From Desulfovibrio sp. JY (lineage in GTDB: Bacteria > Desulfobacterota > Desulfovibrionia > Desulfovibrionales > Desulfovibrionaceae), in assembly GCA_021730285.1 (NCBI GenBank), contig CP082962.1, forward strand, positions 3,100,001 through 3,164,000: a stretch of 64,000 nucleotides of DNA, written 5' to 3'. The position numbers were made by a program, and so were the translations under genes. Below the pieces are notes generated by a model. It worked only from the letters and a program-made list of their open reading frames with translations, was not told where the DNA came from and made no database searches. This document shows positions 1,360 through 53,569 of the stretch, in pieces (positions within the stretch are counted from its first letter, which is position 1; each line of letters begins with the position of its first letter).

Positions 1360-1430
1360 AAGAATTTTTGGGGAGGGTGGGGGTCCGGGGGAGGGAACCC
1401 TTTTTTGCAAAAAAGGGTTCCCTCCCCCGG
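1360..1430 (-). repeat. A/T-cored palindrome with C-rich tail, 3' of the Mop gene
   Basis: A perfect 22-bp inverted repeat (1385-1406 with 1409-1430, two-base loop) is followed on the minus strand by a C-rich run and an aaaaattctt-like tail. It has the same plan as seven other elements in the window. It lies beyond the terminator of the minus-strand Mop gene, oriented palindrome first, then tail, reading away from that gene. Confidence 0.75.
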
Positions 1431-1455
1431 TTCCTTCTCCTCCTCCTCTCCCCAT

Positions 1456-1497
1456 AAAAAAAGCCCGGTCGCCTCGCGAGAGGCGGCCGGGCTTTTG
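1456..1497 (-). terminator. Intrinsic terminator of the Mop genes
   Basis: A near-perfect 17-bp stem (aaaagcccgg... with ...ccgggctttt) with a gcga loop is followed on the minus strand by a run of T. It starts about 20 bases after the stop of the downstream Mop gene. The plus strand has only a short T-run, so termination is mainly minus-strand. Confidence 0.85.
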
Positions 1498-1515
1498 GCT
1501 GGCGCGATAATGCTG

Positions 1516-1725
1516 TTAGTCGGTCACGATCATGACGCTGGTGGCCTTGACCATGGCCTTGACCTTGGCGCCGGCCTTGAGGCCCAGGCCTTCGGCGGAT
1601 TCCTTGGTGATCACGGAAACGATCTCGACGCCGGGGGCGGCTTCGATGACGACCTCGGCGTTGACCATGCCGATGGAAACCTTCTTGACGGTGCCGGGGA
1701 TCAGATTGCGAGCGCTGACTTTCAT
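1516..1725 (-). CDS. mop: Molbindin (Mop), copy 1
   Basis: The 69-residue single-domain protein begins MKVSARNLIPGTVKKVSIG and matches the TOBE/Mop fold. Members of that family assemble into hexamers and hold molybdate or tungstate in the cytoplasm. It differs from the neighbouring copy at only two residues (Ala53 for Ser, Ile66 for Val), and most of the DNA is identical. An AAGGAG sits upstream of the ATG. It lies 42 bases after copy 2 on the same strand and ends before a strong terminator, so the two are probably co-transcribed. Metal storage for the AOR cluster at 20-24 kb is a reasonable inference. Confidence 0.93.
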   Translation of the reverse strand: MKVSARNLIPGTVKKVSIGMVNAEVVIEAAPGVEIVSVITKESAEGLGLKAGAKVKAMVKATSVMIVTD

Positions 1726-1767
1726 GGTATTTCTCCTTGAGTTTTTGGTCGGTTGTTTGCGGCGAAA

Positions 1768-1977
1768 CTAGTCGGTGACGACCATGACGCTGGTGGCCTT
1801 GACCATGGCCTTGACCTTGGAACCGGCCTTGAGGCCCAGGCCTTCGGCGGATTCCTTGGTGATCACGGAAACGATCTCGACGCCGGGAGCGGCTTCGATG
1901 ACGACCTCGGCGTTGACCATGCCGATGGAAACCTTCTTGACGGTGCCGGGGATCAGATTGCGGGCGCTGACTTTCAT
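1768..1977 (-). CDS. mop: Molbindin (Mop), copy 2
   Basis: This 69-residue Mop/TOBE protein is 67/69 identical to the gene that follows it. It is the promoter-proximal copy and has an AAGGAG in front of its ATG. The near-identity of coding DNA and protein indicates a recent tandem duplication or ongoing gene conversion. Like other molbindins it would bind molybdate or tungstate oxyanions; the sequence does not show which metal is preferred. Confidence 0.93.
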   Translation of the reverse strand: MKVSARNLIPGTVKKVSIGMVNAEVVIEAAPGVEIVSVITKESAEGLGLKAGSKVKAMVKATSVMVVTD

Positions 1978-2452
1978 GGAGGTTCTCCTTGTTTTTATGG
2001 TGTTGCGGGGAGGGGCGAGTGCCTGATGCCTTCCTGCCGAAAAACTTTGTCCTCGTGGGAAAAGAGATAAGGCATTTCTAACTCACACGCAAATTATTTT
2101 TTTCGTGTAAGTAGTGTTATTTTTAACATTAAATAAAACAGCATATTAAACTTATTGAAACACGAAAACAATAAAAGCGTGACAGTATGGAAAAGAAAGG
2201 CACTTCCAATTTTGTGGCGAAATATCAGGCTGTTGGAAAGATATTTGGGGGGTCGCATCATGGCGGATTGTTACGAAAAAGTGTCATGAAGGCCTGCGCT
2301 ATGGCCCGGACGGGCTTGGCGGCGATGGTGCGGGGCGGTCCGGCGGGGAGCCGGAGGGTCGGGGAAGGGGCGGGGCCGTTTCCGGCCGTATCCGTGAAGA
2401 CACGGCCGAAAACGGCGACGGGGCTTCTTGCCGTCAGGCAAAAGCGGGCGTG
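1978..2452. other. 475-bp AT-rich gap upstream of the Mop pair
   Basis: The stretch 2080-2200 is conspicuously AT-rich and must hold the promoter of the minus-strand Mop genes. At 2375-2416 an inverted repeat (15-base arms, one mismatch, 12-base loop) lies just beyond the encapsulin stop. It has no T-tract and could be a 3' hairpin of that transcript. I see no gene here. Confidence 0.5.
2101..2167 (-). promoter_or_regulatory. Candidate paired operator upstream of Mop
   Basis: The 8-mer tttcgtgt at 2101-2108 recurs inverted as acacgaaa at 2160-2167, separated by 51 AT-rich bases inside the Mop promoter region. Two inverted half-sites flanking a promoter suggest a regulator. Molybdate/tungstate regulators (ModE or the TunR type known in sulfate reducers) are candidates by context only; I could not compare with a known motif. 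Confidence 0.35.
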
Positions 2453-3256: not shown

Positions 3257-3277
3257 GGCGTACTCCCGTAACGGTGC

Positions 3278-3658: not shown

Positions 3659-3668
3659 ACGTCCTCCG

Positions 3669-3691
3669 TATGACCCGTTTGAAACGGTCAT
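3669..3691 (-). promoter_or_regulatory. Inverted repeat in the EncFtn leader
   Basis: The arms tatgacc/ggtcata and gttt/aaac form an 11-bp inverted repeat with one bulged base, ending exactly where the Shine-Dalgarno of EncFtn begins. It could be an operator for an iron- or redox-sensing regulator, or a leader hairpin that controls access to the ribosome site. No similar sequence was noticed elsewhere in the window. Confidence 0.45.
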
Positions 3692-3705
3692 AGTGATAAT
3701 TGCCG

Positions 3706-3735
3706 ACAGTATGCCACAGGCGCGAGGGATTGCAA
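3706..3735 (-). promoter_or_regulatory. Candidate sigma70-type promoter of the encapsulin operon
   Basis: Reading the minus strand, TTGCAA at 3735-3730 is followed after 18 bases by TACTGT at 3711-3706. This would start transcription just ahead of the inverted repeat at 3669-3691. The match is moderate. Confidence 0.35.
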
Positions 3736-3777
3736 CGCCTTGGCCGGAAAAAAGGAAAAGTCCGGGAATGGAGCGGA

Positions 3778-4410: not shown

Positions 4411-4419
4411 GAGAGCCTC

Positions 4420-5460
4420 CTACCAGCTTCCCGACGAGCCGCCGCCGCCAAAACCGCCGCCGCCCCCGGAGAAGCCGCCGCCTCCTCCACTTCCAAAGCC
4501 GCCGCCCCCGCCGCCGATGAAGAAACCGCCGCCGCCGCCCCGGCCGGAGCTGAACAGAAACGGCCCGATCAGCCCGAGCGCGATGCCGCCCACGCACAGC
4601 AAGGCCAGCATGCCGATCCCCAGGCCGAAAAGCGCGCCCACACCCGGCATGGTCAGGCCGAAGATGCCGGCCCGGGCCGGGGCCGGAAGCCCGGATAATA
4701 CGGCCGTCAGGATGATGGCCAAAATGAAAAGACCGAACACCGCGTTGTCGTCCCCCCCCTTGCCCTTATGGGAGGGCGGGGCCTTGTACTCGCCGCGCAC
4801 GGCCTGCATGATGGCCGAAACGCCGTCCGTGATGCCGGCGTCGAAATTGCCGGTCTTGAATTGCGGCACAATGGCATAGTCGATGATGCGCCCGGACAGC
4901 GCGTCGGTAAGCTTTCCCTCCAGGCCGTAGCCCACCTCGATGCGCACCTTGCGGTCGCCCTTGGACACGAGCAGCAGTACGCCGTTGTCCTTGCCCTTTT
5001 GCCCGATGCCCCAGGCCTCGGCTACTTTGATGGAATACTCCTCCAAGGACTCGCCCTCGAGGGACGGGATGGTCAGCACCACCACCTGGGTCGAATCCGA
5101 ACGCTCGAAATCGGCCAGCTCGGCGTCGAGCCTGGCCTTGGCCTGGGGCGACAGCAACTTGGCGTAATCGTTCACCCGCCCGGTGAGCTTCGGCACCTCC
5201 AACGCCATCGCCGATGTCGTGACGCAAAGGATGAGGAGGGCGAAGATGATGCTGATGAGGCCTCCGGCGGCCAGGGGAGGCGCCGCCTCCCCTGGACCCC
5301 TCCGCCGGGGGGCCGAGGGCCCCCCGGACCCCCCTGACGGGGGGCTCGGGCGCGGGGCGCGGGCCGATGCGCCGGCGCATGCCGCTTCGCGGCAAGCACG
5401 CCGCATGCGCGCCGCGCCCTGCCAGGGCAACACATTGGTTGGGCTACTTATGTCGGGCAT
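4420..5460 (-). CDS. YgcG-family TPM-domain protein with Gly-rich C-terminus
   Basis: The 346-residue frame contains an internal signal-peptide-like helix at about 69-88 (SIIFALLILCVTTSAMA). After it come a TPM domain (about 90-235), two or three membrane segments (about 245-310), and a C-terminal Gly/Phe-rich tail ending GGGGSSGSW, all typical of YgcG. The oddity is the N-terminus. The ATG at 5460 has a GGGAGG in front of it, but the next 65 or so residues are encoded by repeat elements (5260-5424). The signal sequence is therefore far from the start. Either export is impaired or an unrecognised internal start is used. Confidence 0.8.
   Translation of the reverse strand: MPDISSPTNVLPWQGAARMRRACREAACAGASARAPRPSPPSGGSGGPSAPRRRGPGEAAPPLAAGGLISIIFALLILCVTTSAMALEVPKLTGRVNDYAKLLSPQAKARLDAELADFERSDSTQVVVLTIPSLEGESLEEYSIKVAEAWGIGQKGKDNGVLLLVSKGDRKVRIEVGYGLEGKLTDALSGRIIDYAIVPQFKTGNFDAGITDGVSAIMQAVRGEYKAPPSHKGKGGDDNAVFGLFILAIILTAVLSGLPAPARAGIFGLTMPGVGALFGLGIGMLALLCVGGIALGLIGPFLFSSGRGGGGGFFIGGGGGGFGSGGGGGFSGGGGGFGGGGSSGSW
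5260..5345 (+). repeat. GC-rich palindromic element inside the 5' part of the YgcG gene
   Basis: It begins gcctccggcggccagggg, as do the 64-bp repeats and the element at 56615. Two palindromes follow (caggggaggcg/cgcctcccctg and a G6/C6 stem), then a C-rich tail. It runs opposite to the gene it interrupts. The codons it supplies are Pro/Gly/Ala/Arg-rich. Confidence 0.65.
5352..5424. repeat. Long hairpin of the cgcttcgcg-core family
   Basis: The arms gggcgcgg...gcgc and gcgccgcgccc enclose the small palindrome atgcgcc/ggcgcat. A tip gccgc-ttc-gcggc follows, equivalent to gtcgc-ttc-gcgac at 1234-1246 with paired changes in the stem. It lies within the first 40 codons of the YgcG-like frame. 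Confidence 0.5.
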
Positions 5461-5507
5461 GCGCCTCCCAATTCATAACACGCTGAGATTGTACAAGTTG
5501 CCATGAG

Positions 5508-5571
5508 AAGTTTTTGAAGGGGGTCCAGGGGGAAACTTTTTTCAAAAAGTTTCCCCCTGGCCGCCGGAGGC
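5508..5571 (-). repeat. 64-bp palindromic repeat, copy 1, 3' of lemA
   Basis: It is identical base for base to 16673-16736 (inverted) and 48546-48609. It contains a perfect 17-bp inverted repeat (5525-5541 with 5544-5560), the boundary sequence gcctccggcgg on the gene side, and an acccccttcaaaaactt tail. It starts 21 bases after the lemA stop. Confidence 0.85.
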
Positions 5572-5592
5572 ATCTTAACCTCTTTCTCTTCC

Positions 5593-6177
5593 CTAAAATT
5601 TCACCTTGGGCGCTTGTTTGGCGGCCTCGTCGGCCTTGAAGTATTCCTTGGGCTTTAAGTGCAGCATCAGGGAGTTGGTGATGAAATTGGGGAAGGTGCG
5701 AATGGAGGCGTTGTAGATTTCGACGGCCTGATTGTAGCGCTGGCGGGCGACGTTGATGCGGTTTTCGGTGCCCTCGAGCTGGTTTTGAAGGTCGCGGAAG
5801 TTCTGGTCGGCCTTGAGCTGCGGGTAGTTTTCGGCGATGGCCAGAAGGCGCGACAGGGAGGACTGCATTTGTCCCTGGGCCTGCTGGAAGGCGGCCATGG
5901 CCTTGGGGTCATTGAGCGTTTCGGGCGTGATTTTCACCTGCGTGGCCTTGGCCCGGGCGTCGACCACGGCGGTCAGGGTGTCTTTTTCATGGCTGGCGTA
6001 GCCTTTGACCGTTGCCACGAGGTTGGGGATGAGGTCCAGACGGCGTTGCAGGGCCGATTCCACGTTGCCCCAGGCGGCGTTGACCGCCTCCTCGTTGGTC
6101 TGCATCTGGTTGTAGCCGCAGCCGGAGAGGCTGGACAGCATGAGGACGGCGATGAGGAGTCCAAGAAGTCTGGGCAT
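5593..6177 (-). CDS. lemA: LemA family lipoprotein
   Basis: The 194-residue protein has an N-terminal hydrophobic segment ending in a lipobox (LSGC, Cys at about 20). It then has the LemA signature region [19 protein letters not shown] and long amphipathic helices through [18 protein letters not shown]. LemA proteins are membrane-anchored helical bundles, often encoded with TPM-domain proteins, as here. The ATG at 6177 has AAGGAG 8 bases upstream and is preferred over the in-frame codon at 6222. A 64-bp palindromic repeat lies just after its stop. Confidence 0.9.
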
Positions 6178-14522: not shown

Positions 14523-15794
14523 ATGGAAACCGTGATGGAAGCCGCCCTGCGGGCCGGCAAACCCGTATTCTGGCAAAATCCGCTTCGCCGCCCCGTGGAT
14601 GAGCTGCGTGGGGAGTTGTCCGGAGTGCTGGCCGATATCCGGGCCGCTGCCGCGCGTTTTTCCCGCTTCGCGCCGCTCCTGGCGGACCTGTTTCCGGAAC
14701 TGCGGCCCACGGGCGGCGTGATCGAATCGCAGTTGCTCCCTCTGCCCGAGGCCATCGGTGCCGGCGGGGGCCGCGAACCTGTGTTCCTCAAGGCCGACCA
14801 CCTGCTTCCCGTCGCCGGATCGGTCAAGGCGCGCGGCGGGTTCCACGCCGTCCTGGCCGTGGCCGAGCGGCTGGCGCTCACCTCCGGGCTGCTCGCCGGC
14901 CCGGACGCGGATTCCCGCCTGCTCGGGGAAGGGCGATCCCGGGCCTTTTTCGCCGGCCACACGCTTTCCGTGGGCTCGACCGGCAATCTCGGGCTGTCCA
15001 TCGGCATCCTTGGCCGGGCCCTGGGGTTTGCCGTCACGGTCCACATGTCGGGTGACGCCCGGCCCTGGAAAAAGGAAAAGCTGCGCGAGGCCGGAGCCAC
15101 GGTGGTGGAGCACGCCGGGGACTACGCCGCCGCCTGCGCCACGGCCCGGGCCGCCGCCGCCGGCGATCCGACCAATCATTTCATCGACGACGAGAATTCC
15201 CGCGACCTGTTTCTGGGCTATGCCGTGGCCGGACTGCGCTTGCCGGCCCAACTGCGGCCCCTGGGCATCGTCGTCTCGCCGCAGCGGCCGTTGTGCCTGC
15301 ATCTGCCCTGCGGCGTGGGAGGAGCGCCCGGCGGCATCGCCCTGGGCGCGCGCCTGGCCCTTGGCGACGGGGCCCTGGCCATTTTCGTCGAGCCGGCCGA
15401 GGCCCCGTGTATGCTGCTCGGGCTGGCCACCGGTCGCCACGAGGCCGTGTCCGTCAAGGATATGGGGCTTTCCGGCCGCACCATCGCCGACGGCCTGGCC
15501 GTGCCGCGTCCCTCGGGACTCGTTTGCCGACTGGTTGCCCCCGTAGTCGATGGCGTGTGCACCGTGACCGACGCGGCCATGGCGGGCCATGTCGTCGCCG
15601 CCTGGAAGCGGGCCGGGCTGCGCTTGGAGCCTTCCGCCGCCGCCGCGTTGGCCGGTCCGGCCATGACGCGCGCCGCCGGTCTGCCGCGGCTTGCCGGCAA
15701 GACGGCCAGCCACATCGTCTGGGCCACAGGCGGGGGCATGCTGCCGGACGAGGTGTTCGAGGAAATCCTGGCCATGGGGGAAGGGCAGGGGTGA
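14523..15794 (+). CDS. dsdA: D-serine ammonia-lyase (DsdA-like)
   Basis: The 423-residue PLP enzyme of fold type II would convert D-serine to pyruvate and ammonia. The PLP-lysine motif is PVAGSVKARGGFHAV (about 96-110), and the phosphate-binding loop is SVGSTGNLGLSIG. The HFIDDENSRDLFLGYAVA block and ATGGGMLPDEVF near the C-terminus are characteristic of DsdA. The start is taken at the ATG 14523; a TTG at 14505 and an ATG at 14535 are possible, and no strong Shine-Dalgarno decides. Its stop overlaps the GTG of the next gene by three bases. Confidence 0.88.
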   Translation: METVMEAALRAGKPVFWQNPLRRPVDELRGELSGVLADIRAAAARFSRFAPLLADLFPELRPTGGVIESQLLPLPEAIGAGGGREPVFLKADHLLPVAGSVKARGGFHAVLAVAERLALTSGLLAGPDADSRLLGEGRSRAFFAGHTLSVGSTGNLGLSIGILGRALGFAVTVHMSGDARPWKKEKLREAGATVVEHAGDYAAACATARAAAAGDPTNHFIDDENSRDLFLGYAVAGLRLPAQLRPLGIVVSPQRPLCLHLPCGVGGAPGGIALGARLALGDGALAIFVEPAEAPCMLLGLATGRHEAVSVKDMGLSGRTIADGLAVPRPSGLVCRLVAPVVDGVCTVTDAAMAGHVVAAWKRAGLRLEPSAAAALAGPAMTRAAGLPRLAGKTASHIVWATGGGMLPDEVFEEILAMGEGQG

Positions 15795-16663
15795 TCATAA
15801 GCGCCAGCCGCCGCACGGACATCCCGGCCTTTTATGCCCGCTGGCTACTCAACCGGCTGCGGGCCGGGTTCTGCGAGGTGGTGAGTCCCTTCAACGCCGC
15901 CCAGGTCAGTCGCGTTTCCCTGGCTCCGGAAGACGTCGACGCCATCGTCTTTTGGACCCGCGATCCGCGCCCGCTGCTGCCGCATCTGCCCGAAATGCGA
16001 GCCATGGGCCACGAACCCTTTTTCCTTTTCACCGTGCTGGCCAATCCCCGGGAGCTGGACCCCAAATGCCCGGCCCCGGACGTCTCCGTGCCGGCGTTTG
16101 CCGCCCTGGCCGAAGCGCTGCCGGGCCGGATCACCTGGCGCTACGACCCCATCGTGCTGACGGAAAAAACGCCGCCCGACTGGCATCGGGGCGTCTTTGC
16201 CCGGCTGGCCCGCCGTCTTGCCGGCCTGACCGACCGGGTGGTGGTCAGCTTCATGGAGCCCTATCGCAAGATCGCCAGCCGCATGAAACCCCTGGCCGGG
16301 CAAGGGTTCGCGCCGTTTGCCCCGGACGAGGAGGAACACCTGCGCCTGCTCTTCGATCTGCGCGACATGGCCGCCGCGCACGGCCTGCGGCTTATGACCT
16401 GCTGTCAGCCGGAACTCTATCAGGAAGCGGGCATCACCCCGGCCCGGTGCATCGACCCGGACTGGATCGCCACGCGCCTCGGCAGGCCCCTCGATCTCGG
16501 CAAGGACCCGCACCAACGGCCGCGTTGCGGCTGCGCCCCGAGCAAGGATATCGGCGCCTACGACCGTTGCCTCTTCGGCTGCCGTTACTGCTACGCCACG
16601 TCGAGCTTCGAGCGCGCCCGGGCGGCCTTCGCCCGCCATGACCCCGAAGCGGCGGCGTTGTGA
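15791..16663 (+). CDS. DUF1848 family protein
   Basis: The 290-residue protein begins VIISASRRTDIPAFY and contains VSPFNAAQVSRVSL, FWTRDPRPLL and YDPIV, all conserved in DUF1848. Its C-terminal cluster of cysteines (RCGCAPSKDIGAYDRCLFGCRYCYA) resembles an iron-sulfur binding radical-SAM-like motif placed at the C-terminus, as in the family. The GTG start overlaps the dsdA stop (GTGA), so translation is coupled. No reaction is established for the family. An identical 64-bp repeat starts 9 bases after the stop. Confidence 0.85.
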   Translation: MIISASRRTDIPAFYARWLLNRLRAGFCEVVSPFNAAQVSRVSLAPEDVDAIVFWTRDPRPLLPHLPEMRAMGHEPFFLFTVLANPRELDPKCPAPDVSVPAFAALAEALPGRITWRYDPIVLTEKTPPDWHRGVFARLARRLAGLTDRVVVSFMEPYRKIASRMKPLAGQGFAPFAPDEEEHLRLLFDLRDMAAAHGLRLMTCCQPELYQEAGITPARCIDPDWIATRLGRPLDLGKDPHQRPRCGCAPSKDIGAYDRCLFGCRYCYATSSFERARAAFARHDPEAAAL

Positions 16664-16672
16664 GGGATGTAT

Positions 16673-16736
16673 GCCTCCGGCGGCCAGGGGGAAACTTTTT
16701 GAAAAAAGTTTCCCCCTGGACCCCCTTCAAAAACTT
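16673..16736 (+). repeat. 64-bp palindromic repeat, copy 2, 3' of the DUF1848 gene
   Basis: It is identical to 5508-5571 and 48546-48609. The inverted repeat is 16684-16700 with 16703-16719 (17 bp, loop ga). The orientation relative to the upstream gene is the same as in the other copies. No T-tract follows the hairpin directly; the tail reads cccccttcaaaaactt. Confidence 0.85.
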
Positions 16737-16938
16737 TTCAAGGGGGCGAAATGGTATTGATGACAGGTGCCATTTCTCGTTGCGGTGTTTTTGCATGAGA
16801 AACGGGATGGGGGGAAAGTGCGGCGAACGCCCGGAATTCGGGAATTGCTTCCGCACAGGCGTATGCGATTGGGGTGACTGACTGCCGGGGCCATGGCGTA
16901 AGGCCTCTTCTTGTCGCCTATGGGGCGCGTGGCCTGGG

Positions 16939-17016
16939 GCCGGCGGGCGGTTGGCGGGACGCGAAGGCGTATTCTTCGAATATGCGCCGCGCGCGTCCTG
17001 CCAACCGCCCGCCGGC
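16939..17016. repeat. Long hairpin with a conserved 28-nt core, copy A
   Basis: The arms 16939-16963 and 16992-17016 pair over 25 bp with a single G-T wobble. The tip at 16963-16990 is itself a hairpin (ggcg..tattc with gaatatgcgcc) and is identical, but for one base, to the inverted segment 48329-48356. The arm sequences of the two copies are different. The rest of the 16737-17093 gap has no recognisable gene. Confidence 0.65.
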
Positions 17017-17093
17017 CAGCCAAAGGAAGCAATCGAACCGACGCCGTTCGGTTCGAGCGAATGAAATTTGTCCCCCCCTTGAAAAAGAGGGGG

Positions 17094-28210: not shown

Positions 28211-29047
28211 ATGGCCGAAGTAACGCAGCTTATCCACCAGTACCTGCGCCACAACAAGAAGTTTCCCCTGGTCTTTTGCCCGGGCTGCGGCCACGGCATC
28301 GTGCTGGGGTCCCTCGTGCGCAGCGTCCATGCCCTGGGCCTGTCCAAGGACGAGGTGGTCATCGTGGCCGGCATCGGCTGCTCGGGCCGCATCGCCGCCT
28401 ATGTGGACTTCAACACCGTCCACACCACCCACGGCCGGGCGCTGACCGTCGCCACGGGCATCAAGATGGCCAACCCGGCGCTGACCGTCATCGCGGTCAT
28501 GGGCGACGGCGACGCCTTTTCCATCGGCGGCAACCACTTCATCCATGCCGCCCGGCGCAACATCGGCGTCACGGCGCTGGTGCTCAACAACTTCATTTAC
28601 GGCATGACCGGCGGCCAGTGCTCGTCCACCACCCCCGAGGGCGCCTACACCCACACCAGCCCCATGGGCCAGCCCGAGGCCTCCTTCGACGTGGTCGAGC
28701 TGGCCAGGGCCGCCGGGGCCAGCGGCGTGGCCCGGGGCACGGTCTACCACGTCAAGGCCCTGGACGGACTTATCACCGCCGCGCTTGCCCAGCCGGGCTT
28801 CAATCTGGTCGAGGCGCTGACCCCGTGCTTCACCCAGTACGGCCGGGGTAACGGATTCAAGAACCCGGTGGCCATGTTCCAGTGGCTCAAGGAGCGGGCG
28901 GTGCCCCTCGAGGCCTACGAGAAGCTGGAGCAAAAAGACGGGCGCATCCCCATCGGGGTGTTCGTCAAGCGCGACGTGCCGGGCCTTGAGACGCGCTACG
29001 CCGCCATGTGCCGGGAGTTTCGGGAGAAAAAGGGAGGCGCGGCATGA
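28211..29047 (+). CDS. korB: 2-oxoglutarate-type ferredoxin oxidoreductase, beta (TPP) subunit
   Basis: The 278-residue TPP-binding subunit has FCPGCGHGIVLGSL, the VAGIGCSGRIAAYV block, and the pyrophosphate-binding GDGDAFSIGGNHFIHAARRN. NNFIYGMTGGQ follows. It catalyses decarboxylation of the 2-oxoacid with the alpha subunit. AAGGAG within the duplicated korA end lies 10 bases before its ATG. The stop overlaps the korC start (ATGA). Confidence 0.95.
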   Translation: MAEVTQLIHQYLRHNKKFPLVFCPGCGHGIVLGSLVRSVHALGLSKDEVVIVAGIGCSGRIAAYVDFNTVHTTHGRALTVATGIKMANPALTVIAVMGDGDAFSIGGNHFIHAARRNIGVTALVLNNFIYGMTGGQCSSTTPEGAYTHTSPMGQPEASFDVVELARAAGASGVARGTVYHVKALDGLITAALAQPGFNLVEALTPCFTQYGRGNGFKNPVAMFQWLKERAVPLEAYEKLEQKDGRIPIGVFVKRDVPGLETRYAAMCREFREKKGGAA

Positions 29048-29688
29048 ACGGCGAGGATATGGTGCTGGCCCGCTACGAGATACGGCTGTCCGGGCTTGGC
29101 GGTCAGGGCATCCTGACCATGGGCAAGCTTTTGGGCCAGGGTCTGGCGCTTTACCACGGCTACCACGTGACCCAGACCCAGAGTTACGGCCCCGAGGCCC
29201 GGGGTGGGGCCAGCCGGTCCGACCTCGTGGTCAGTTCCGACCCCATCAGCTATCCCAAGACCGAATACCTGGACCTGCTCGTGGCGTTGTCCCAGGAGGC
29301 GGTCGGCATCTACTACCATTACCTCAAGCCCCGGGGCACGCTGCTTATCGATACGGGGCTGGTCAAGCAGACGCCGTCCAACGTGTTTTTGGGCCTGCCG
29401 TTTACGGCGCTGGCCCGGGACCATGTGGGCGTGCCCCAGTCCACCAACGTGGTGGCGCTTGGCGCGGTGACCTGGCTTTTGCCTTTCGCCAAGCCCGAGG
29501 CCATGCGCAAGAGCCTCAAGGCGGCGTTGCCCGAAAAGATCCGGGCCGCCAATCTCAAGGCCTTCAACCTCGGCTACAACGAAGCCAAGAAGCGCCTGGG
29601 CCAGCCCATCGCCGTGCTCGAGCCCGGCGCCGGCGACGGCCAGGACGAGGAACGCATGGACCTTTGCAACATCATGGCCGAGGACTAG
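29044..29688 (+). CDS. korC: 2-oxoacid:ferredoxin oxidoreductase, gamma subunit
   Basis: The 214-residue subunit begins with EIRLSGLGGQGILTMGKLLG and has the family block QSYGPEARGGASRSDLVVS. LKPRGTLLIDTGLV and NVVALGAVTWLLP follow. This subunit binds CoA-side elements of the KOR/VOR complex. It completes a korDABC operon whose genes are all overlapped or tightly linked. A C-terminal acidic extension (about 195-214) follows the domain. Confidence 0.94.
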   Translation: MNGEDMVLARYEIRLSGLGGQGILTMGKLLGQGLALYHGYHVTQTQSYGPEARGGASRSDLVVSSDPISYPKTEYLDLLVALSQEAVGIYYHYLKPRGTLLIDTGLVKQTPSNVFLGLPFTALARDHVGVPQSTNVVALGAVTWLLPFAKPEAMRKSLKAALPEKIRAANLKAFNLGYNEAKKRLGQPIAVLEPGAGDGQDEERMDLCNIMAED

Positions 29689-29712
29689 GGCAAAGCATTT
29701 GGAAAAGATCGT

Positions 29713-29779
29713 GCGAGCGGGGAAACCCTTATAAAAAGGGTTCTCCCCTCTCGCGCTCTCCCTTTCCGAAACGTTTTTA
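29713..29779 (+). repeat. A/T-cored palindrome with C-rich tail, 3' of korC
   Basis: An imperfect palindrome (gcgag-cggggaaaccctt with aaaagggttctcccc-tctcgc) is followed by ctctccctttccgaaacgttttt. It closely resembles 32092-32156 and 53422-53486, including the preceding atttggaaaaga. It begins 24 bases after the korC stop. The remaining gap to 29957 shows nothing else. Confidence 0.7.
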
Positions 29780-29957
29780 CGTTGCAACTCCGTGTGATCA
29801 CTACCTTTTGGGTTGCGAAAGTTGGGAAAGCCCCTTGAGGGAAAATCTTCGCCCGATCAAGCAGTTCCCACCGTATGTTTTTTTGAGGTAGGGGAAAGGA
29901 AACGGGAGGCGGAAAGGCCGCTGCCGCATCGTTGCAACCCGTAAGGGAGCGCCGTCC

Positions 29958-32069
29958 ATGCATCTGACCGAACACGCCGGCAAGAAGCTTCTGGCCGAGG
30001 CGGGTATCGCTGTTCCGCCGGGCATCGCTTTCGAACCGGGCGAGGTGGACGGCCTTGCGCCGCCTTTTGCCGCGCCCTATTATCTCAAGGCCCAGACTCT
30101 TTCCGGCGGCCGGGGCAAGGCCGGCGGAGTGGTCCGGCTGGAATCGGCCGGGGAGTTGCCCGAAGCCGCCCGAGCACTTTTTTCCCGTCCTTTCGGCGGC
30201 GTTTGTCCGCCTTTTTTGCGCCTGGAGCCGGCGGTTGCCCATGACCGGGCGCTCTATGTGTCCCTGGGCGTGTCCCGGGAGCGCCGGGCGCTGTGTCTGA
30301 CCCTCGCCCGGCAGGGCGGGGTGGACGTGGAGGGGCTGGCCGGCACGCCGGACCTGCTCGTCCTGTCGGTCGTGCCGCCGTTTGTCCCCACGCCGCGCCT
30401 TGTGCGGCGGGCCTTTTTCCATTTTGGATTGGCCCGGGAATGCTACGCGGCCTTTGCCGACCTGCTCGACCGGCTTTTTGCCGCCGTGGCCGATTACGGT
30501 CTGCTCTTGGCCGAAATCAATCCCCTGGCCGTGACGCCGGACGGGCATTTCGTGGCGCTCGACGCCAAGGTGGTCATCGACGACAGCGCGGTGTGCATTG
30601 CTCCCGGGCTGTCCCGCTTCGGCGACGACCGGCTGGCCACGCCGGCCGAGCGGCTGGCCCGGGACCATGGCCTGTCCTTTGTGAGCCTTTCCGGCCACAT
30701 CGGCCTTGTGGCCAACGGCGCGGGCCTGGCCATGGCCACCATGGACGCCCTCGACGTCGCCGGGCTGGCAGCCGCCAACTTTCTGGATTTCGGCGGCACG
30801 GCCGACGCCGCCCGGCTGCGGGCCGCCTTTGACCTCATTTTCGCCGAACCGCGCGTCGCGGCCTGCTGCGTCAACATGTTCGGCGGCATCCTGTCCTGCG
30901 CCGACGTGGCCAAGGCTCTGCTCGAGGCCTTGGGCGACGCGCCGCCGTCGCGACCGATCGTCGTGCGCTTCGCCGGCAACGGCGCGGAGATGGGCGCGGC
31001 GCTGTTGCGTCGCCAGGGCCTGCCCGCGCTGCTCGTGGCCGACGACATGGACCAGGCCGTGGCCTTGCTGTCCGAGGTGGCGCCGGTCGGCCCGCGAAAG
31101 CCGCAGGTCGAAGCGGCGCCGGATCACTGCCGCGAGGTGACGTCCGTCTCCCGGACGCCGGCCGCATCCGGGAGACGCGCGCCGATGCTGCCGTCGCTGC
31201 TCGCCCTCGACGGTGCAAGCGGCGTGCTCGTCCAGGGCATCACCGGCCGGGCCGGGCGGCTGCACGCCAAGCGCATGCGGGCCTACGGGGCCAACGTGGT
31301 CTGCGGGGTGACGCCTTTCCGGGGCGGCACGGCCGTGGACGGGGTGCCGGTCTACGATACCGTGGCCGCGGCGGCCGACGCCCACGACATCGCCCTGTCC
31401 GTCATTTTCGTTCCAGGCATGGGCGCGGCCGATGCCGTGCTGGAGGCGATCGAGGCCGGCGTTCCGCGCATCGTGTGCATCACCGACGGCGTTCCCCAAA
31501 AGGACATGCTGACCGTGCGGGCGGCTCTTTCCGGGCGCGGCATCCTGCTGCTCGGGCCCAACACGCCGGGCATGCTGCTGCCGGGCAGGATGCAGGCGGG
31601 CATCATGCCGGCCGAGCCCTTCATTCCCGGGCCGGTGGCGGTTTTTTCCCGAAGCGGCACGCTGACCTACGAAGTGTGCTCACGCCTTTCGGCGGCCGGC
31701 ATCGGCCAGGCCGTGGCCGCCGGCATCGGCGGTGATCCTTTCGGCGGCGCGGGCTTTGTCGAGCTGTGCGAAATGGTGCGCGACGATCCCCAGGTGCTCA
31801 CGGTGATGGTCATCGGCGAAGTGGGGGGGCGGGCCGAGGAGGATCTGGCCGCCTATGTGGCCGAGACCGCCTATCCCAAACCCGTGGCGGCCTTTGTCGC
31901 CGGCATGACCGCGCCCGCCGGCCGGGCGCTCGGCCATGCCGGGGCGCTGCTCGAACACCCCGGCGGCATCACCGCCAAGATCGCCTGCCTCGAGCGGGCC
32001 GGCATCGCCGTGTGCCCGGAACTCGGCGACGTGGCCGGCGTCATGGCCGGATTGTTGTGTGGCCGATAA
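29958..32069 (+). CDS. Succinyl-CoA ligase, fused beta-alpha (SucC-SucD)
   Basis: The 703-residue protein combines a SucC-like half with a SucD-like half (from about 410). The SucC half (1-400) has an ATP-grasp start HLTEHAGKKLLAEAGIAVP, AQTLSGGRGKAGGV, LLAEINPLAV and NMFGGILSCADVAKAL. The SucD half has VLVQGITGRAG, GPNTPGMLLPG and GHAGALLEHPGG, where His660 would be the phosphohistidine. Most bacteria keep the subunits separate. Placed directly after korDABC, it should convert the succinyl-CoA made there to succinate with substrate-level phosphorylation, or run in reverse. A different acyl-CoA (acetyl-CoA) cannot be excluded. Confidence 0.88.
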   Translation: MHLTEHAGKKLLAEAGIAVPPGIAFEPGEVDGLAPPFAAPYYLKAQTLSGGRGKAGGVVRLESAGELPEAARALFSRPFGGVCPPFLRLEPAVAHDRALYVSLGVSRERRALCLTLARQGGVDVEGLAGTPDLLVLSVVPPFVPTPRLVRRAFFHFGLARECYAAFADLLDRLFAAVADYGLLLAEINPLAVTPDGHFVALDAKVVIDDSAVCIAPGLSRFGDDRLATPAERLARDHGLSFVSLSGHIGLVANGAGLAMATMDALDVAGLAAANFLDFGGTADAARLRAAFDLIFAEPRVAACCVNMFGGILSCADVAKALLEALGDAPPSRPIVVRFAGNGAEMGAALLRRQGLPALLVADDMDQAVALLSEVAPVGPRKPQVEAAPDHCREVTSVSRTPAASGRRAPMLPSLLALDGASGVLVQGITGRAGRLHAKRMRAYGANVVCGVTPFRGGTAVDGVPVYDTVAAAADAHDIALSVIFVPGMGAADAVLEAIEAGVPRIVCITDGVPQKDMLTVRAALSGRGILLLGPNTPGMLLPGRMQAGIMPAEPFIPGPVAVFSRSGTLTYEVCSRLSAAGIGQAVAAGIGGDPFGGAGFVELCEMVRDDPQVLTVMVIGEVGGRAEEDLAAYVAETAYPKPVAAFVAGMTAPAGRALGHAGALLEHPGGITAKIACLERAGIAVCPELGDVAGVMAGLLCGR

Positions 32070-32091
32070 AGATTTGGAAAAGACAAACAGT

Positions 32092-32156
32092 GCGAGAGGG
32101 GGACCCTTTTTGAAAAAAGGGTCCCCCTCTCGCGCTCTCCCCTCCCCAAAACTTTT
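32092..32156 (+). repeat. A/T-cored palindrome with C-rich tail, 3' of the SucC-SucD gene
   Basis: A perfect 20-bp inverted repeat (32092-32111 with 32114-32133, loop ga) is followed by ctctcccctccccaaaactttt. It lies 22 bases after the stop codon, oriented as the other copies. Confidence 0.8.
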
Positions 32157-32236
32157 CACGGTGAAGGGGGAGAGGGATGTATCGGGAAAAGAGAGGGGAA
32201 GTAAATTTACCGTGAGACGGGGGAGCCCGGCGGAGA

Positions 32237-48299: not shown

Positions 48300-48383
48300 G
48301 GTCGGCGGGGCAGGGCGCGCGGCCGTGTGCGGCGCATATTTGAAGAATACGCCTTCACGCCCGCGCGCCCTGCCCCGCCGACC
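48300..48383. repeat. Long hairpin with a conserved 28-nt core, copy B
   Basis: The arms 48300-48322 and 48361-48383 pair perfectly over 23 bp. The enclosed segment 48329-48356 is the inverted match (27/28) of 16963-16990. The arm sequences differ from copy A while pairing is kept. The rest of the 48184-48545 gap has no recognisable gene. Confidence 0.65.
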
Positions 48384-48545
48384 CTGGACACGCGACCCAT
48401 CAGTCTGTTGTGAAAGTCCTCTTTCGCAGGCTGCTGTAGATTTTTGCTGGAATGGAAAAAGTCAATATCGGCAGAAAGAAGCCTCAATGAAGCTTGGAAC
48501 GGTAGTCTGCTACGCTTGGGAACAAATATTTTTTTGTCCCTTTGA

Positions 48546-48609
48546 AAGTTTTTGAAGGGGGTCCAGGGGGAAACTTTTTTCAAAAAGTTTCCCCCTGGCC
48601 GCCGGAGGC
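48546..48609 (-). repeat. 64-bp palindromic repeat, copy 3, 3' of an acyl-CoA synthetase gene
   Basis: It is identical to 5508-5571 and to 16673-16736 inverted. The palindrome is 48563-48579 with 48582-48598. It starts 23 bases after the stop of the minus-strand synthetase, in the common orientation. Confidence 0.85.
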
Positions 48610-48632: not shown

Positions 48633-50306
48633 CTACCGCATCGCTTCGGGGAACAGCTTGGCCCCCAGCTCGCGCAGCTTGTATTTCTGCACCTTGCCGC
48701 TGGTGGTCAGGGGGAATTCCTTCACGAAGGCGATGTATTTCGGAATCTTGTGCCAGGCGATCTGGCCCCGGCAGAAGTCGCGCACTTCCTCGGGCTCCAT
48801 GGCGACGTCCTTTCGAAGGATGATGTAGGCGCCCACTTCCTCGCCGTACTTGCGGCTGGGGACGCCGGCCACCTGGACGTCGGCGATGCCGGGCATGGTG
48901 TAGAGGAACTCCTCGATTTCGCGGGGATAGATGTTTTCGCCGCCCCGGATGATCATGTCCTTGATGCGGCCGGTGATGGCCACGTAGCCGAACTCGTCCA
49001 TGACGCCAAGGTCGCCGGAATGCAGCCAGCCGTCCTTGTCGATGCATTTGGCCGTGGCTTCGGGGTTGTTGTAGTAGCCCTTCATGGCGTTGTAGCCGCG
49101 ACAGCACAGTTCGCCCTGCTTGCCGCGCTCCATTTCCACACCCGTTTCCGGGTCGGCCACCTTGACTTCGACGTGGGGGAAGGCCCGGCCCACGCCCTCG
49201 ACCCGGTAATGGTAGGGGTCGGTGACGTCGGTCTGGGTCATGCCGGGCGAACTTTCGGTCAGCCCGTACACGCTCGTGATTTCCTTCATGTACATCTTCT
49301 CGGTCACCTGCCGCATGGTCTGGGTGGGACAGACCGAGCCGGCCATGATGCCGGTGCGCAACGACGAGAAGTCGAATTTCGGGAAGAGCTTGTGCTCCAG
49401 GATGGCGATGAACATGGTGGGCACGCCGTAGATGGCCGTGCACTTTTCCTGTTCGATGCTCATCATGGAATGCACCGGGTTGAAGACCTCGGTAAAAACC
49501 ATGGTGGTGCCGTGGTTGACGCAGGCCATGACCCCGAGCACGCAGCCGAAGCAGTGGAACAGCGGCACCTGGACGCACAGTTTGTCATTGTGCGTGAAGC
49601 GCTGTCGCTGGCCGATGGAGTAGCCGTTGTTGACGATGTTGTGGTGGCTCAGCATGACGCCCTTGGGAAAACCGGTGGTTCCCGAGGTGTACTGCATGTT
49701 CACCACATCGTGGCAGGTGAAGGTGGCCTGCCGGGCACGCAGGTCCTCGTCGGTGACGGTGCGGGCCAGGCCCAGGATCTCGGGGATGGAGTACATGCCC
49801 CGGTGCTTTTCCACGCCCAGGAAGCAGACGCGCTTCAGGTGCGGGAAGGTCTCGCTTTTAACGGCCCCGCGCTGCATGGTGCGCAGTTCCGGGGCCAGGC
49901 CGTAGAGGATCTCGATGTAGTCCGAGTCGCGGAACCCATTGGTGATGAAGATGTTTTCCGCTTCGGAGTTGGTCATCAGGTACTTGAGCTCGTTGCGCTT
50001 GTAGGCGGTGTTGACCGTGAGCAGCACGGCCCCCATCTTGGCCGTGGCGAACATGAGCGCCACCCAGAAGGGCACGTTGGTGGCCCAGAGCGCAACTTTC
50101 TCACCCTTTTCGATGCCAAGCGCGATAAGCCCCTTGGCCAGCTCGTCGGTCAATTCGTCGAACTGTCGCCAGGTCAGCCGGTAGTCCCGGTCCACGTAGA
50201 CCACGGCTTCCTGATCCGGGTATTTGGCGGCCGTCTGGTGGAGCAGCTCGCCGAGCGTCAGGTCGAAAAGCGGCGGCTCGTGCAGTGGAGGAGGCACAAA
50301 GGTCAT
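48633..50306 (-). CDS. AMP-dependent acyl-CoA synthetase (ligase 1)
   Basis: The 557-residue adenylate-forming enzyme has the P-loop-like MQYTSGTTGFPKGVMLSHHN and SVYGLTESSPGMTQT. GWLHSGDLGVMDEFGYVAITGRIKDMIIRGGENIYPREIE and the catalytic lysine region TTSGKVQKYKLRE follow. It is closest to medium/long-chain fatty acyl-CoA ligases. The ATG at 50306 has AAAGGAG 9 bases upstream. The HTH-cupin regulator gene lies 16 bases upstream on the same strand, so regulator and enzyme form a unit mirrored by 51107-53414. Confidence 0.92.
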   Translation of the reverse strand: MTFVPPPLHEPPLFDLTLGELLHQTAAKYPDQEAVVYVDRDYRLTWRQFDELTDELAKGLIALGIEKGEKVALWATNVPFWVALMFATAKMGAVLLTVNTAYKRNELKYLMTNSEAENIFITNGFRDSDYIEILYGLAPELRTMQRGAVKSETFPHLKRVCFLGVEKHRGMYSIPEILGLARTVTDEDLRARQATFTCHDVVNMQYTSGTTGFPKGVMLSHHNIVNNGYSIGQRQRFTHNDKLCVQVPLFHCFGCVLGVMACVNHGTTMVFTEVFNPVHSMMSIEQEKCTAIYGVPTMFIAILEHKLFPKFDFSSLRTGIMAGSVCPTQTMRQVTEKMYMKEITSVYGLTESSPGMTQTDVTDPYHYRVEGVGRAFPHVEVKVADPETGVEMERGKQGELCCRGYNAMKGYYNNPEATAKCIDKDGWLHSGDLGVMDEFGYVAITGRIKDMIIRGGENIYPREIEEFLYTMPGIADVQVAGVPSRKYGEEVGAYIILRKDVAMEPEEVRDFCRGQIAWHKIPKYIAFVKEFPLTTSGKVQKYKLRELGAKLFPEAMR

Positions 50307-50322
50307 AAGGTGGCTCCTTTCG

Positions 50323-51106: not shown

Positions 51107-51667
51107 ATGAGCAAGGAAATCGGACCCGTGCGGGAAATCGCCATGCGGCTGCGCGGCATCCGCGAAGTGACGGGTTTCACCATGGAGCAACTGGCCGAGG
51201 CCACGGGCGTTTCGGCGGACCAGGTGCTGCTGTACGAGACCGGGGAAGAAGAAATTCCGGTCAGCTACCTTTACGAAGTGGCCAAGGCGGCCGGCGTCGA
51301 CCTTACGGCGCTCTTGACCGGCGGCGAGGCCCACCTGCACGCCTATTCCCTGGTGCGCGACGGCAACGGCCTGTCCGTGGACCGGCGCAAGGCCTATAAG
51401 TACCAGTCCCTGGCCTACCGGTTCCACAAGCCGCTCATGGAGCCGTTTCTGGTCACGGTGCCGCCCAAGGCCGAGTCGGAGATGGAATTCAACCGGCACC
51501 TGGGCGAGGAATTCATCTACATGCTGCGCGGCCGCATGGAAGTGCGCCTCGGCGACGAGGTGCTTACCCTCGAACCCCATGATTCCCTGTATATTTCCTC
51601 GCGCACGCCCCATGCCATGCGGGGACTCGACGACACGGAAGCCGAATTCCTCGACGTGATTATCTAG
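51107..51667 (+). CDS. HTH-cupin transcriptional regulator 2
   Basis: The 186-residue protein has the same XRE (MRLRGIREVTGFTMEQLAEATGVSADQVLLYETGEEE) plus cupin (HLGEEFIYMLRGRMEVRLGDEVLTLEPHDSLYISSRTPHAM) layout as the divergent regulator. The two are clearly diverged, so this is an old paralogous pair. AAGGGGAC precedes the ATG. A second acyl-CoA synthetase follows 94 bases downstream. Confidence 0.9.
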   Translation: MSKEIGPVREIAMRLRGIREVTGFTMEQLAEATGVSADQVLLYETGEEEIPVSYLYEVAKAAGVDLTALLTGGEAHLHAYSLVRDGNGLSVDRRKAYKYQSLAYRFHKPLMEPFLVTVPPKAESEMEFNRHLGEEFIYMLRGRMEVRLGDEVLTLEPHDSLYISSRTPHAMRGLDDTEAEFLDVII

Positions 51668-51761
51668 CCGGGCGCCGATTGCCCATGCGGTGTCCGGCCG
51701 AGCCGATCCATGCCAAAGCGTTTCACGCGACACCAACCTATTGCCCTTGGAGCCCAAGACC

Positions 51762-53414
51762 ATGCCTGTCGCCAAACTGCGACCCAAAACGTATCGTGAA
51801 CTGCTGGAGACCGTGTCCGTCTCCGTGCCCGAAAACTATAATTTCGCCTTCGACTTCCTCGACACCGAGGCCGCCGCGGACCCGACCCGCCCGGCCATGA
51901 TCCATATCGACAAGGAGGGCAACCGCCGGGATTTCGACCTGGCCTTTTTCAGCAAGGAATCTGCCCGGCTGGCCAACGCCTTCAAGGACGCGGGGCTCAA
52001 GAAGGGCGACCGCGTCATGGTCATCCTCTACCGCCGGCTGGAGTGGTGGGTGACCATGCTGGCGCTGCACAAGCTCGGGGCCGTGCCCGTGCCCTCGCCC
52101 AACCTGCTTACCCCCCACGACATCGATTTCCGGGTCAATTATGCCGGCATCAAGGCCCTCATCGCCGAGGATTCGGTCGTCTCCCGGGTGGAGGACGCCC
52201 GGCCGACCTGCCCGACGCTTTCCGTCCTCATCCATGTGGGCGAGGCCCCCATGCCGGCGGGCTGGCTCGACTACGAAACCATCCGCGCCGCCGCTTCGGA
52301 CGTTTTTCCCCGGACCCCCGACGCCCCCGGCGGCAAGGACACGCTGCTCATCTTCTTCTCCTCCGGCACTACCGGCATGCCCAAGATGGTGGAGCACACC
52401 CACGCCTACGCCCTGGGCCACATGCCCACCGGCGTCTACTGGCACAACCTGGAGCCCGGCGACATCCACCTCACCGTGGCCGACACCGGCTGGGGCAAGG
52501 CCGTGTGGGGCAAGTTCTACGGCCAGTGGATGGCCGGGGCCACGATCTTTGTCTGGGACTTCCGAGGCAAGTTCCATCCGGCGGAGTTGCTCGAGATCAT
52601 GAGCAAGCACAAGGTCACGACCTTTTGCGCCCCGCCCACGGTCTACCGCTTTCTCATCCGCGAGGACCTGAAGAAATACGACCTGTCGGCGCTTCGCTAC
52701 TGCACCACCGCCGGCGAGCTGTTAAACGACGGCGTGTTTCGGGCCTGGAAGGAGATCACGGGGCTGCCCATCTACGAAGGCTACGGCCAGACCGAAACCT
52801 GTCTGCAAATCGCCACATTTCCCTGCATGGAGCCCAAGCCCGGTTCCATCGGCCGGCCGGCCCCGGGCTGGAACGTGACGCTCCTTGACGAGGAGGGGCA
52901 CACCTGCCCGACGGGCGTGGAAGGCGAAATCTGCATCGGGCTCGAGGACGACAAGAACGTCGGGCTCTTCGCCGGCTACCTGCTCGAGCCGGCAAAGACC
53001 GCCTCGGTCGTGGTCAACGGCTACTACCACACGGGCGACAAGGCCTGGATGGACGAGGACGGCTACTACTGGTTCCTCGGCCGCACCGACGACCTCATCA
53101 AGTCGAGCGGCTACCGCATCGGACCGTTCGAGGTGGAAAGCGCGCTCATCACACATCCGGCCGTGGTCGAGGCGGCGGTGACCGGCGTGCCCGATCCCGT
53201 GCGCGGCCAGGCGGTCAAGGCCACGGTGGTTTTGGCTTCCGGGTTCGACCCGTCCGACGAGCTGGCCAAGGAGTTGCAAAACCACGTCAAGAAGGAGACC
53301 GCGCCCTACAAGTATCCGCGTGTCATCGACTTCGTGGACGAACTGCCCAAGACCATCAGCGGCAAGATCAAACGAGCCGAGATCCGCGCCCGCGACGCGA
53401 ATAGGGAGATATAA
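51762..53414 (+). CDS. AMP-dependent acyl-CoA synthetase (ligase 2)
   Basis: The 550-residue adenylate-forming enzyme has IFFSSGTTGMPKMVEHTHAY, then GYGQTETCLQIATFP and the hinge GRTDDLIKSSGYRIGPFEVESAL. The catalytic lysine region KTISGKIKRAEIR follows. The ADTGWGKAVWGKFYGQWMAGA block points to the medium-chain acyl-CoA synthetase / acetyl-CoA synthetase-like group, different from ligase 1. The substrate is not determinable. It follows an HTH-cupin regulator and ends at an A/T-cored palindrome. Confidence 0.92.
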   Translation: MPVAKLRPKTYRELLETVSVSVPENYNFAFDFLDTEAAADPTRPAMIHIDKEGNRRDFDLAFFSKESARLANAFKDAGLKKGDRVMVILYRRLEWWVTMLALHKLGAVPVPSPNLLTPHDIDFRVNYAGIKALIAEDSVVSRVEDARPTCPTLSVLIHVGEAPMPAGWLDYETIRAAASDVFPRTPDAPGGKDTLLIFFSSGTTGMPKMVEHTHAYALGHMPTGVYWHNLEPGDIHLTVADTGWGKAVWGKFYGQWMAGATIFVWDFRGKFHPAELLEIMSKHKVTTFCAPPTVYRFLIREDLKKYDLSALRYCTTAGELLNDGVFRAWKEITGLPIYEGYGQTETCLQIATFPCMEPKPGSIGRPAPGWNVTLLDEEGHTCPTGVEGEICIGLEDDKNVGLFAGYLLEPAKTASVVVNGYYHTGDKAWMDEDGYYWFLGRTDDLIKSSGYRIGPFEVESALITHPAVVEAAVTGVPDPVRGQAVKATVVLASGFDPSDELAKELQNHVKKETAPYKYPRVIDFVDELPKTISGKIKRAEIRARDANREI

Positions 53415-53421
53415 AGGGGAT

Positions 53422-53486
53422 GCGAGAGGGGAACCCTTTTTGAAAAAAGGGTTCCCCTCTCGCGCTCTCCCTTCCCAAAAACTTTT
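53422..53486 (+). repeat. A/T-cored palindrome with C-rich tail, 3' of ligase 2
   Basis: A perfect 20-bp inverted repeat (53422-53441 with 53444-53463) is followed by ctctcccttcccaaaaactttt. It begins 7 bases after the stop. It faces the element at 53512-53569 from the convergent gene. Confidence 0.8.
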
Positions 53487-53511
53487 AGCGGGGACAGTCT
53501 GTTATCGTTGA

Positions 53512-53569
53512 AAGTCTTTGGAAAGGGGGCCCGGGGGGAGAACCTTTCTTCAGAAAGGTTTCCCCCCGG
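53512..53569 (-). repeat. A/T-cored palindrome with tail, 3' of the phosphoribosyltransferase gene
   Basis: On the minus strand the stem ccggggggaaacctttct/agaaaggttctccccccgg (one bulge) is followed by gccccctttccaaagactt. It corresponds position by position to the 64-bp repeat, with paired changes in the stem. It starts 7 bases after the stop codon. Confidence 0.75.

Follow-up and report, generated by a model that had tools for sequence, protein, structure and literature searches.

Why should long, nearly perfect palindromes stand so regularly behind genes? The question is raised by a stretch of 64,000 nucleotides from Desulfovibrio sp. JY (positions 3100001-3164000 of contig CP082962.1), here called the window, in which an earlier note had described eight A/T-cored palindromes, all 3' of a gene, and had proposed selection for an RNA structure at mRNA 3' ends. 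The source genome (G000) is a single contig of 4,686,982 bases. We found the eight elements to belong to a class of dispersed repeats resembling repetitive extragenic palindromes (REPs) and bacterial interspersed mosaic elements (BIMEs), without the REP tag and without a RAYT in G000. On sequence analysis we place the probability that these repeats act at mRNA 3' ends at about 0.52. This role is favored because of where they lie, because they avoid operons and divergent gaps, and because some orthologous gene ends carry conventional terminators.

A modular class of dispersed repeats

Units of five families (A, B, C, D, and E) were counted with profile models in 40 evenly spaced 20-kb stretches and 160 kb around the window, amounting to 984 kb of G000 after the removal of overlap; exclusion of stretches L014 and L034 for overlap lowered the count from 139 to 137 elements. 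The 137 units occupied 101 sites and were divided among the families as 43 E, 34 C, 23 A, 20 B, and 17 D. One unit was detected at 65 sites and two at 36, and all 36 pairs (median length, 171.5 bp) were arranged tail to tail, 28 of them as C with B or E. At L002, L010, and L019, an insertion sequence (IS) interrupts a composite, and the halves of these three composites account for six of the 101 sites. Each unit has a long stem with a G-rich 5' arm and a C-rich 3' arm, followed by a C-run able to start a second hairpin; often, the tail could supply the 5' arm of a weaker second hairpin, or it pairs with the partner tail in composites.

A covariance-model scan of the genome and its relatives, which the earlier note had suggested as a check, bore out this abundance. 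With a hairpin-only model built from seven elements, 149 of the best 150 of 1802 candidates matched at an E value of <1e-7 genome-wide, representing at least 147 distinct places, two of which were matched on both strands, and related genomes carried copies too. In the window and the 40 stretches (864 kb), hairpins with an A/T core were intergenic in 72 of 73 cases, versus 312 of 1224 other hairpins. These results describe a modular class of REP/BIME-like repeats whose units stand singly or tail to tail, mostly as C with B or E. The statement that the elements are not random mobile repeats therefore needed qualification: their distribution is nonrandom, but they are high-copy dispersed repeats that form composites and are targeted by an IS.

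Position relative to genes

Locations were counted with our own retrained gene caller; by the initial gene calls, 15 of 71 looked opposed, and retraining removed many of these. By type of gap, 44 of the 101 sites were convergent, 51 tandem, and 1 divergent, with 5 at stretch ends. Expressed per gene pair, a site was present in 43/103 convergent, 51/632 tandem, and 1/99 divergent pairs; three of the convergent and three of the tandem sites are the IS-split composite halves, for which the IS gene itself is then the neighbor. The hairpin lay from -40 to +90 nt of a co-oriented stop codon at 90 of the 101 sites (median, 13 nt), and 107 of 109 stop-to-hairpin distances fell between -30 and +35. With the element subtracted, tandem gaps that contained one had a median of 193 nt, compared to 34 nt in gaps without an element, and gaps of <40 nt made up 5/51 of the former and 302/581 of the latter (P = 1.7e-9). 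These longer residual gaps indicated that operon-internal gaps are avoided. Moreover, for 26 of 27 single co-oriented copies in tandem gaps, the next start codon lay >50 nt further on. As far as location goes, the 3' position, the near-absence from divergent gaps, and the avoidance of operon interiors support the proposed selection at mRNA 3' ends.

The same distribution would also fit selfish, nonautonomous repeats, similar to REP doublets forming hairpins (REPINs) or to miniature inverted-repeat transposable elements (MITEs), which would have no host role, be spread by some trans-acting enzyme, and be tolerated only where harmless, that is, between convergent genes and at transcription-unit ends. 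The high copy number in five families and the tail-to-tail arrangement of every pair, as in REP dimers, argue for this explanation, as do the tandem-gap composites with either half at the stop codon and the inclusion of D in a mosaic repeat. We nevertheless consider it unlikely, given the orientation, terminator, and sister-genome results below. The enrichment in convergent gaps and the symmetry of the composites are likewise consistent with sites that work at the DNA level, where the palindromes, by cruciform extrusion or by binding gyrase or a nucleoid protein, would absorb supercoils between converging transcription units. A/T-rich centers ease cruciform extrusion, which counts for this possibility; the distance of about 13 nt from stop codons counts against it, and we regard it as quite improbable.

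Orientation in tandem gaps

According to the earlier note, all copies share one orientation relative to the preceding gene. This rule is partly built in, since any tail-to-tail composite in a convergent gap will appear to obey it. The symmetry of composites leaves single units in tandem gaps as the only test. Such copies were co-oriented in 27 cases and anti-oriented in 9; by family, the co/anti ratios were 11:0 for A, 5:0 for C, 7:4 for E, 1:1 for B, and 3:4 for D. Only family A is convincingly strict, because three of the five C singles are halves of IS-split composites. The strict orientation of single A/T-cored A units argues against both selfish repeats and DNA-level sites. Errors in gene calling were considered as the source of the anti-oriented exceptions and were rejected for family D: Pfam domains were found in 6 of 10 neighbors checked, including those at all four anti-oriented D units, and these D exceptions are therefore real.

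A search of G000 for the sequence frame of family A showed that A-plan units with an A/T core faced a stop codon in 15 of 16 cases, whereas those with a G/C core did so in 3 of 9 and mostly faced a start codon (6 of 9). In genome G010, G/C-core units faced a stop codon in 53 of 68 cases, so core type does not set the side in general. Thus, the orientation rule holds in the window and mostly in G000 but is no law of the class, as seen from the nine anti-oriented singles and from the counts in another genus given below.

Conventional terminators at element ends

Conventional terminators were sought with our own script as T-tailed hairpins within 150 nt of the stop codon and outside the element, in gaps of at least 80 bp; 105 of the 398 ends examined carried an element. 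At the stricter threshold, a terminator was found at 1/105 element ends versus 51/293 others, and at the looser threshold, at 3/105 versus 59/293. Three further T-tailed matches at element ends overlapped elements; two of the three were middle stems of composites, with TTTTT behind them. When the elements were excised and the flanks joined, the difference persisted at both the stricter (7/105 versus 51/293; P = 0.006) and the looser threshold (11/105 versus 60/293; P = 0.025), a depletion that we take as moderate evidence because short convergent gaps lower the chance of a terminator at element ends. That conventional terminators are fewer even after excision speaks against selfish repeats.

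Base pairing in stems and tails

Among the seven distinct stem sequences of family A, only paired changes were seen: all 112 of 112 cells were paired, with 17 compensatory changes and none broken. Pairing was less complete in family B (15 compensatory changes, 5 one-sided changes, and 7 broken cells), family C (7, 6, and 6, respectively), and family D (7, 2, and 1). None of 500 shuffles in each of these four families reached the observed pairing, although the stem register was picked for best pairing and the comparison is therefore biased towards it. In the tails of A and D units with a recognizable loop (2 of 40 had none), the C-run and a downstream stretch gave stems of 5 bp or longer in 26/38 units, compared to 265/760 shuffles. 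In the 28 composites of C with B or E, tail-tail pairing reached -21.9 kcal/mol versus -11.1 kcal/mol after shuffling, but the advantage was slight over tails exchanged among the sites, with 155 of 5000 permutations as good.

Persistence and replacement in related genomes

At a threshold of E <= 1e-4, the hairpin model gave at least 149 matches in G000 and at least 150 in its sister genome, G011. There were 17 to 93 matches in the other 12 genomes of the same genus and 0 to 132 in 10 genomes of the family from outside the genus; within the order but outside the family, 15 of 16 genomes had no match. Syntenic blocks of G011 are 90 to 94% identical to G000, and in a flank-based comparison the element was kept at 7 of 7 alignable sites, a retention that counts against selfish repeats; at 20 of the 27 sites from G000 and 4 of the 11 from G011, the flanks could not be aligned. 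One of the seven sites shows a B-to-A swap, in that the composite at 53418-53573 has an A element in G011 in place of its B half. As a check for the terminal inverted repeats and target-site duplication of MITEs, an empty site was looked for among these seven alignable sites, and there was none. A D site at 69862-70306 had appeared to be limited to G000 in a gene-based comparison (3 sites shared, 1 not, and 35 neither); the flank-based comparison found a D element there, and the site was dismissed as a difference. Element identity between G000 and G011 was about equal to that of the flanks at three sites, higher at two, lower at a C-E composite (0.85 versus 0.97), and low at 53418 from the B-to-A swap. 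Sequence conservation alone is therefore no argument, since element identity equals, exceeds, or trails that of the flanks depending on the site.

In more distant genomes, the orthologous ends showed terminators or elements of other types. In G010, the same frame, GCCTCCGGCGG...GGACCC or a close variant, occurs with a G/C-core stem at the B end (53414) and at four ends of A type (5593, 16663, 48633, and L033_761). The A/T core is therefore not essential at gene ends, and these G/C-cored relatives of the same plan further weaken the case for cruciform-forming or protein-binding DNA sites. The 48633 end has an A element in G000 and G011, whereas by eye it has a T-tailed hairpin in G004, which we take to be Desulfovibrio magneticus RS-1 of the genus Solidesulfovibrio. 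At the 16663 end, G004 has a G/C hairpin followed by GGACCCC; no same-plan element was seen by eye at its 5593 and 53414 ends. Scored by rules that miss some terminators visible by eye, the 27 element ends with an orthologue in G010 (28 before the removal of one with a miscalled gene) comprised 8 with an A-plan element, 3 with a conventional terminator, and 16 with neither. An A-plan element or a terminator was thus present at 11/27 orthologous ends, versus 7/50 ends that have neither in G000 (P = 0.012).

Copies extend beyond the genus as well. Over 68 bp, family A shows 99% identity in a genome of another genus whose longer alignable stretches are about 68 to 76% identical, which is a point in favor of selfish spread. 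G018, a genome from another genus, has A/T-core hairpins of its own with the same plan, 25 intergenic and 2 genic in 307 kb. Some of these (L143:8045 and L141:12349) have A/T-core stems of CTTTTGTGAACAAAAG type with the same C-run and a AAAACTTT tail, and some stems of the CTTTTGTGAACAAAAG type sit a short way before a start codon.

An insertion sequence that targets the composites

One IS of the IS110 family, with Transposase_20 and DEDD_Tnp_IS110 domains in the copy tested, was present in 13 copies in G000 (L119-L131; for example, L002 from about 915). All 13 copies have inserted into the C half of a composite, at one and the same position in the C tail; the remaining C tail is found across the IS in every copy, and the B or E half is as well in 12 of 13. 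Two of the copies share flanks and may represent one event. This IS is a candidate for targeting guided by a bridge RNA. The accessible part of PMC1525189 describes IS110-family elements with all copies in REPs from Pseudomonas and Sinorhizobium, and the targeting of composites here, as such IS do with REPs, is a further point for the selfish-repeat explanation.

The elements of the window

All eight palindromes were present on the plan originally described, with a long stem, a T5/A5-type center, and a C-run followed by AAAACTTTT or a similar tail. Each stands behind a co-oriented predicted gene with its tail pointing away, and seven lie within 26 nt of the stop codon (predicted stop to edge of the model match). 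Read with the C-run/AAAACTTTT tail 3', family A is represented by the elements first placed at 5508, 16673, and 48546, which occupy 5498..5568 on the minus strand (hairpin, 5525-5560), 24 nt past the stop codon of a LemA-family gene (5593-6177, minus); 16676..16746 on the plus strand (hairpin, 16684-16719), 12 nt past a DUF1848 gene (15791-16663, plus); and 48537..48606 on the minus strand (hairpin, 48563-48598), 26 nt past an AMP-binding-enzyme gene (48633-50306, minus). A related G/C-core unit with the same GCCTCCGGCGGCC...GGACCCC frame, at 5260..5301 on the plus strand, faces the start of the downstream gene and is tail to tail with the A element at 5498-5568. Near-perfect long inverted repeats with arms of 26 and 28 nt and spacers of 28 nt, at 16938-17017 and 48300-48383, share the intergenic gaps of the A elements at 16676 and 48537. 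The element at 29713 belongs to family E, which is B-like with an offset core and stem (29708..29783, plus; hairpin, 29711-29756), and lies 19 nt past a POR-domain gene (29044-29688, plus); the B element at 32092 (32089..32161, plus; hairpin, 32089-32136) lies 19 nt past a CoA-ligase gene (29958-32069, plus).

The claim that two convergent genes, ending at 53414 (plus) and 53577 (minus), each have their own copy was correct in that both hairpins exist (53416-53469 and 53534-53567), each 3 nt from its stop codon. The elements at 53422 and 53512 are, however, the halves of one composite of about 155 bp (53418..53573), with B on the plus strand as the left half and C on the minus strand as the right half, which occupies the gap between these genes and whose tails can pair in the middle; independent small hairpins were thus rejected. 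The one copy said to lie beyond a conventional terminator is the family D element at 1360 (1359..1432, minus; hairpin, 1370-1445), 83 nt past the stop codon of a small TOBE-domain gene (1516-1725, minus); a conventional intrinsic terminator of that gene, with an A-tract, hairpin, and T-tract (1459..1496, minus), lies between the two. This D hairpin stands at one end of a mosaic repeat of about 390 bp (1057..1452), whose inner part is also found without D. The mosaic repeat has at least 39 other long matches in G000 (73 to 89% identical) and many copies in G011; among the G000 matches listed, the D hairpin is included in 15 of 39, and most of the rest are confined to about 1060-1300. A further mosaic, of G/C-core relatives, fills the gap at 56615..57003 and is in part a dispersed repeat of about 245 bp (56758-57003) with many copies in G011.

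The eight elements are therefore not independent, comprising one composite pair, three copies of family A, and one copy within a larger mosaic repeat. Pairing is kept, but the stems do not all differ as had been stated, because three belong to family A and two (32092 and 53422) to family B. A known RNA family was rejected as their identity: at the curated Rfam threshold, only a tRNA was matched in the window and nothing fitted the elements, and a lax search gave subthreshold matches at 1360 and 32092, all to microRNA families.

A possible role at mRNA 3' ends

Several results weigh against a role at mRNA 3' ends. Eight of 15 tandem-gap pairs end 14 to 44 nt short of the next start codon, so that a promoter would have little or no space, and six of nine anti-oriented singles face a start codon within 37 nt. 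The D and E singles are mixed in orientation, A-plan units in the tandem gaps of G010 are divided 23:14, and in G018 the gene on the hairpin side was co-oriented at 12 of 24 hairpins (27 before the removal of three near contig ends), with several tails unclear; one G018 exception (L137:3540) is by eye half of a tail-to-tail pair. Preserved pairing is not proof of RNA selection, because templated repair can keep palindromes perfect. When element masks were lent to other ends, terminators there fell to 13.2/293, versus 1/105 at element ends, so part of the depletion reflects a lack of space. A C-run rather than a T-tract follows the main stem in families A to D. Finally, A-plan elements taken alone were not significantly more frequent at the orthologous G010 ends (8/27 versus 7/60; P = 0.063).

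The tandem pairs also bear on the possibility that the elements are strict intrinsic terminators without a U-tract and without any part in mRNA protection. The exchange of an A element for a T-tailed hairpin at the 48633 end agrees with such a function, as does the proposal, in the accessible part of PMC8355165, that hairpin clusters near stop codons are terminators. At tandem pairs so close to the next start codon, however, a strict terminator would silence the next gene unless a promoter lay inside the element, and the D element at 1360 lies directly behind a strong conventional terminator. We therefore consider strict termination very unlikely; the same pairs leave room for selfish repeats.

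On balance, the claim of selection for an RNA structure is partly upheld, with preserved pairing, retention at the sister-genome sites, and the scarcity of conventional terminators adding to the evidence from location. If the repeats do act at mRNA 3' ends, the transcript of the upstream gene would include the element, and the first stem would fold directly behind the terminating ribosome. The hairpin cluster might then halt or release RNA polymerase, with or without Rho, and would subsequently block 3'-5' exonucleases, fixing the mRNA 3' end; composites would serve both convergent genes at once. A more tentative extension is a self-spreading terminator system, in which bidirectional 3'-end repeats without a U-tract may have displaced conventional terminators at many gene ends in this lineage. 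The hairpin core would vary by species, with an A/T core in G000 and cores of GATCAT, GTCAC, or GATGAT type in G010, whereas the position at the gene end and the GCCTCCGGCGG...GGACCC frame would be retained.

Should the elements indeed terminate or protect transcripts, terminators in these bacteria would be partly supplied by spreading repeats, not evolved singly, and would be overlooked by prediction programs that require a T-tract. Copies with the same frame and different cores at orthologous gene ends amount to a natural experiment, and the long-debated role of REP-like sequences in 3' regions becomes testable.

Comparison with known systems

A literature search, which was not exhaustive, found no description of these elements, and the accessible part of PMC12306157 makes no mention of Desulfovibrio. 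The closest likeness is to REPs, BIMEs, and REPINs, which, in the accessible parts of PMC3733652 and PMC1525189, are high-copy extragenic palindromes found mostly in convergent or unidirectional gaps and downstream of coding regions, occur in opposite-orientation pairs able to cofold, and are targets of the IS110 family. The present elements likewise are extragenic palindromes in >100 copies, form opposite-orientation pairs, and are the target of an IS110-family element. They differ in lacking, as a rule, the GTAG/CGTC tag (GTAG in 12/137 and CGTC in 5/137 units, within 34 nt on the 5' side), in stems of about 16 to 20 bp or more with an A/T core, in a tail made of a C-run and a second pairing region, and in a core type that changes between species at the same gene ends. 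A Y1 transposase (RAYT; PF01797) was absent from G000, G009, G010, and G012 among 12 genomes and was found once in G011. Since G000 has no Y1 transposase and Y1 counts across these genomes do not track element counts, a RAYT-driven REPIN was ruled out, and the absence of a Y1 transposase from G000 and G010 also counts against selfish repeats. For want of the tag and of a RAYT, the class was not filed as REP.

As in the hairpin-cluster terminators described in the accessible part of PMC8355165, two or more hairpins lie close to the stop codon; those clusters consist of "short" stems of 2 to 10 bp, whereas the stems here are longer and belong to repeat families. Desulfovibrio desulfuricans G20 is tabulated among genomes rich in T-tailed terminators (62%) in the accessible part of PMC1852404. 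With Rho-independent terminators, the elements share a strong hairpin just past stop codons at transcription-unit ends, where some orthologous ends have conventional terminators; they differ in having no T-tract directly after the main stem and in forming high-copy sequence families. Terminators built from uptake sequences are known from Neisseria and the Pasteurellaceae. Like the elements described here, these consist of a repeated family in inverted repeats at gene ends (PMC1852404, accessible part); in G000 the whole hairpin is the repeated unit.

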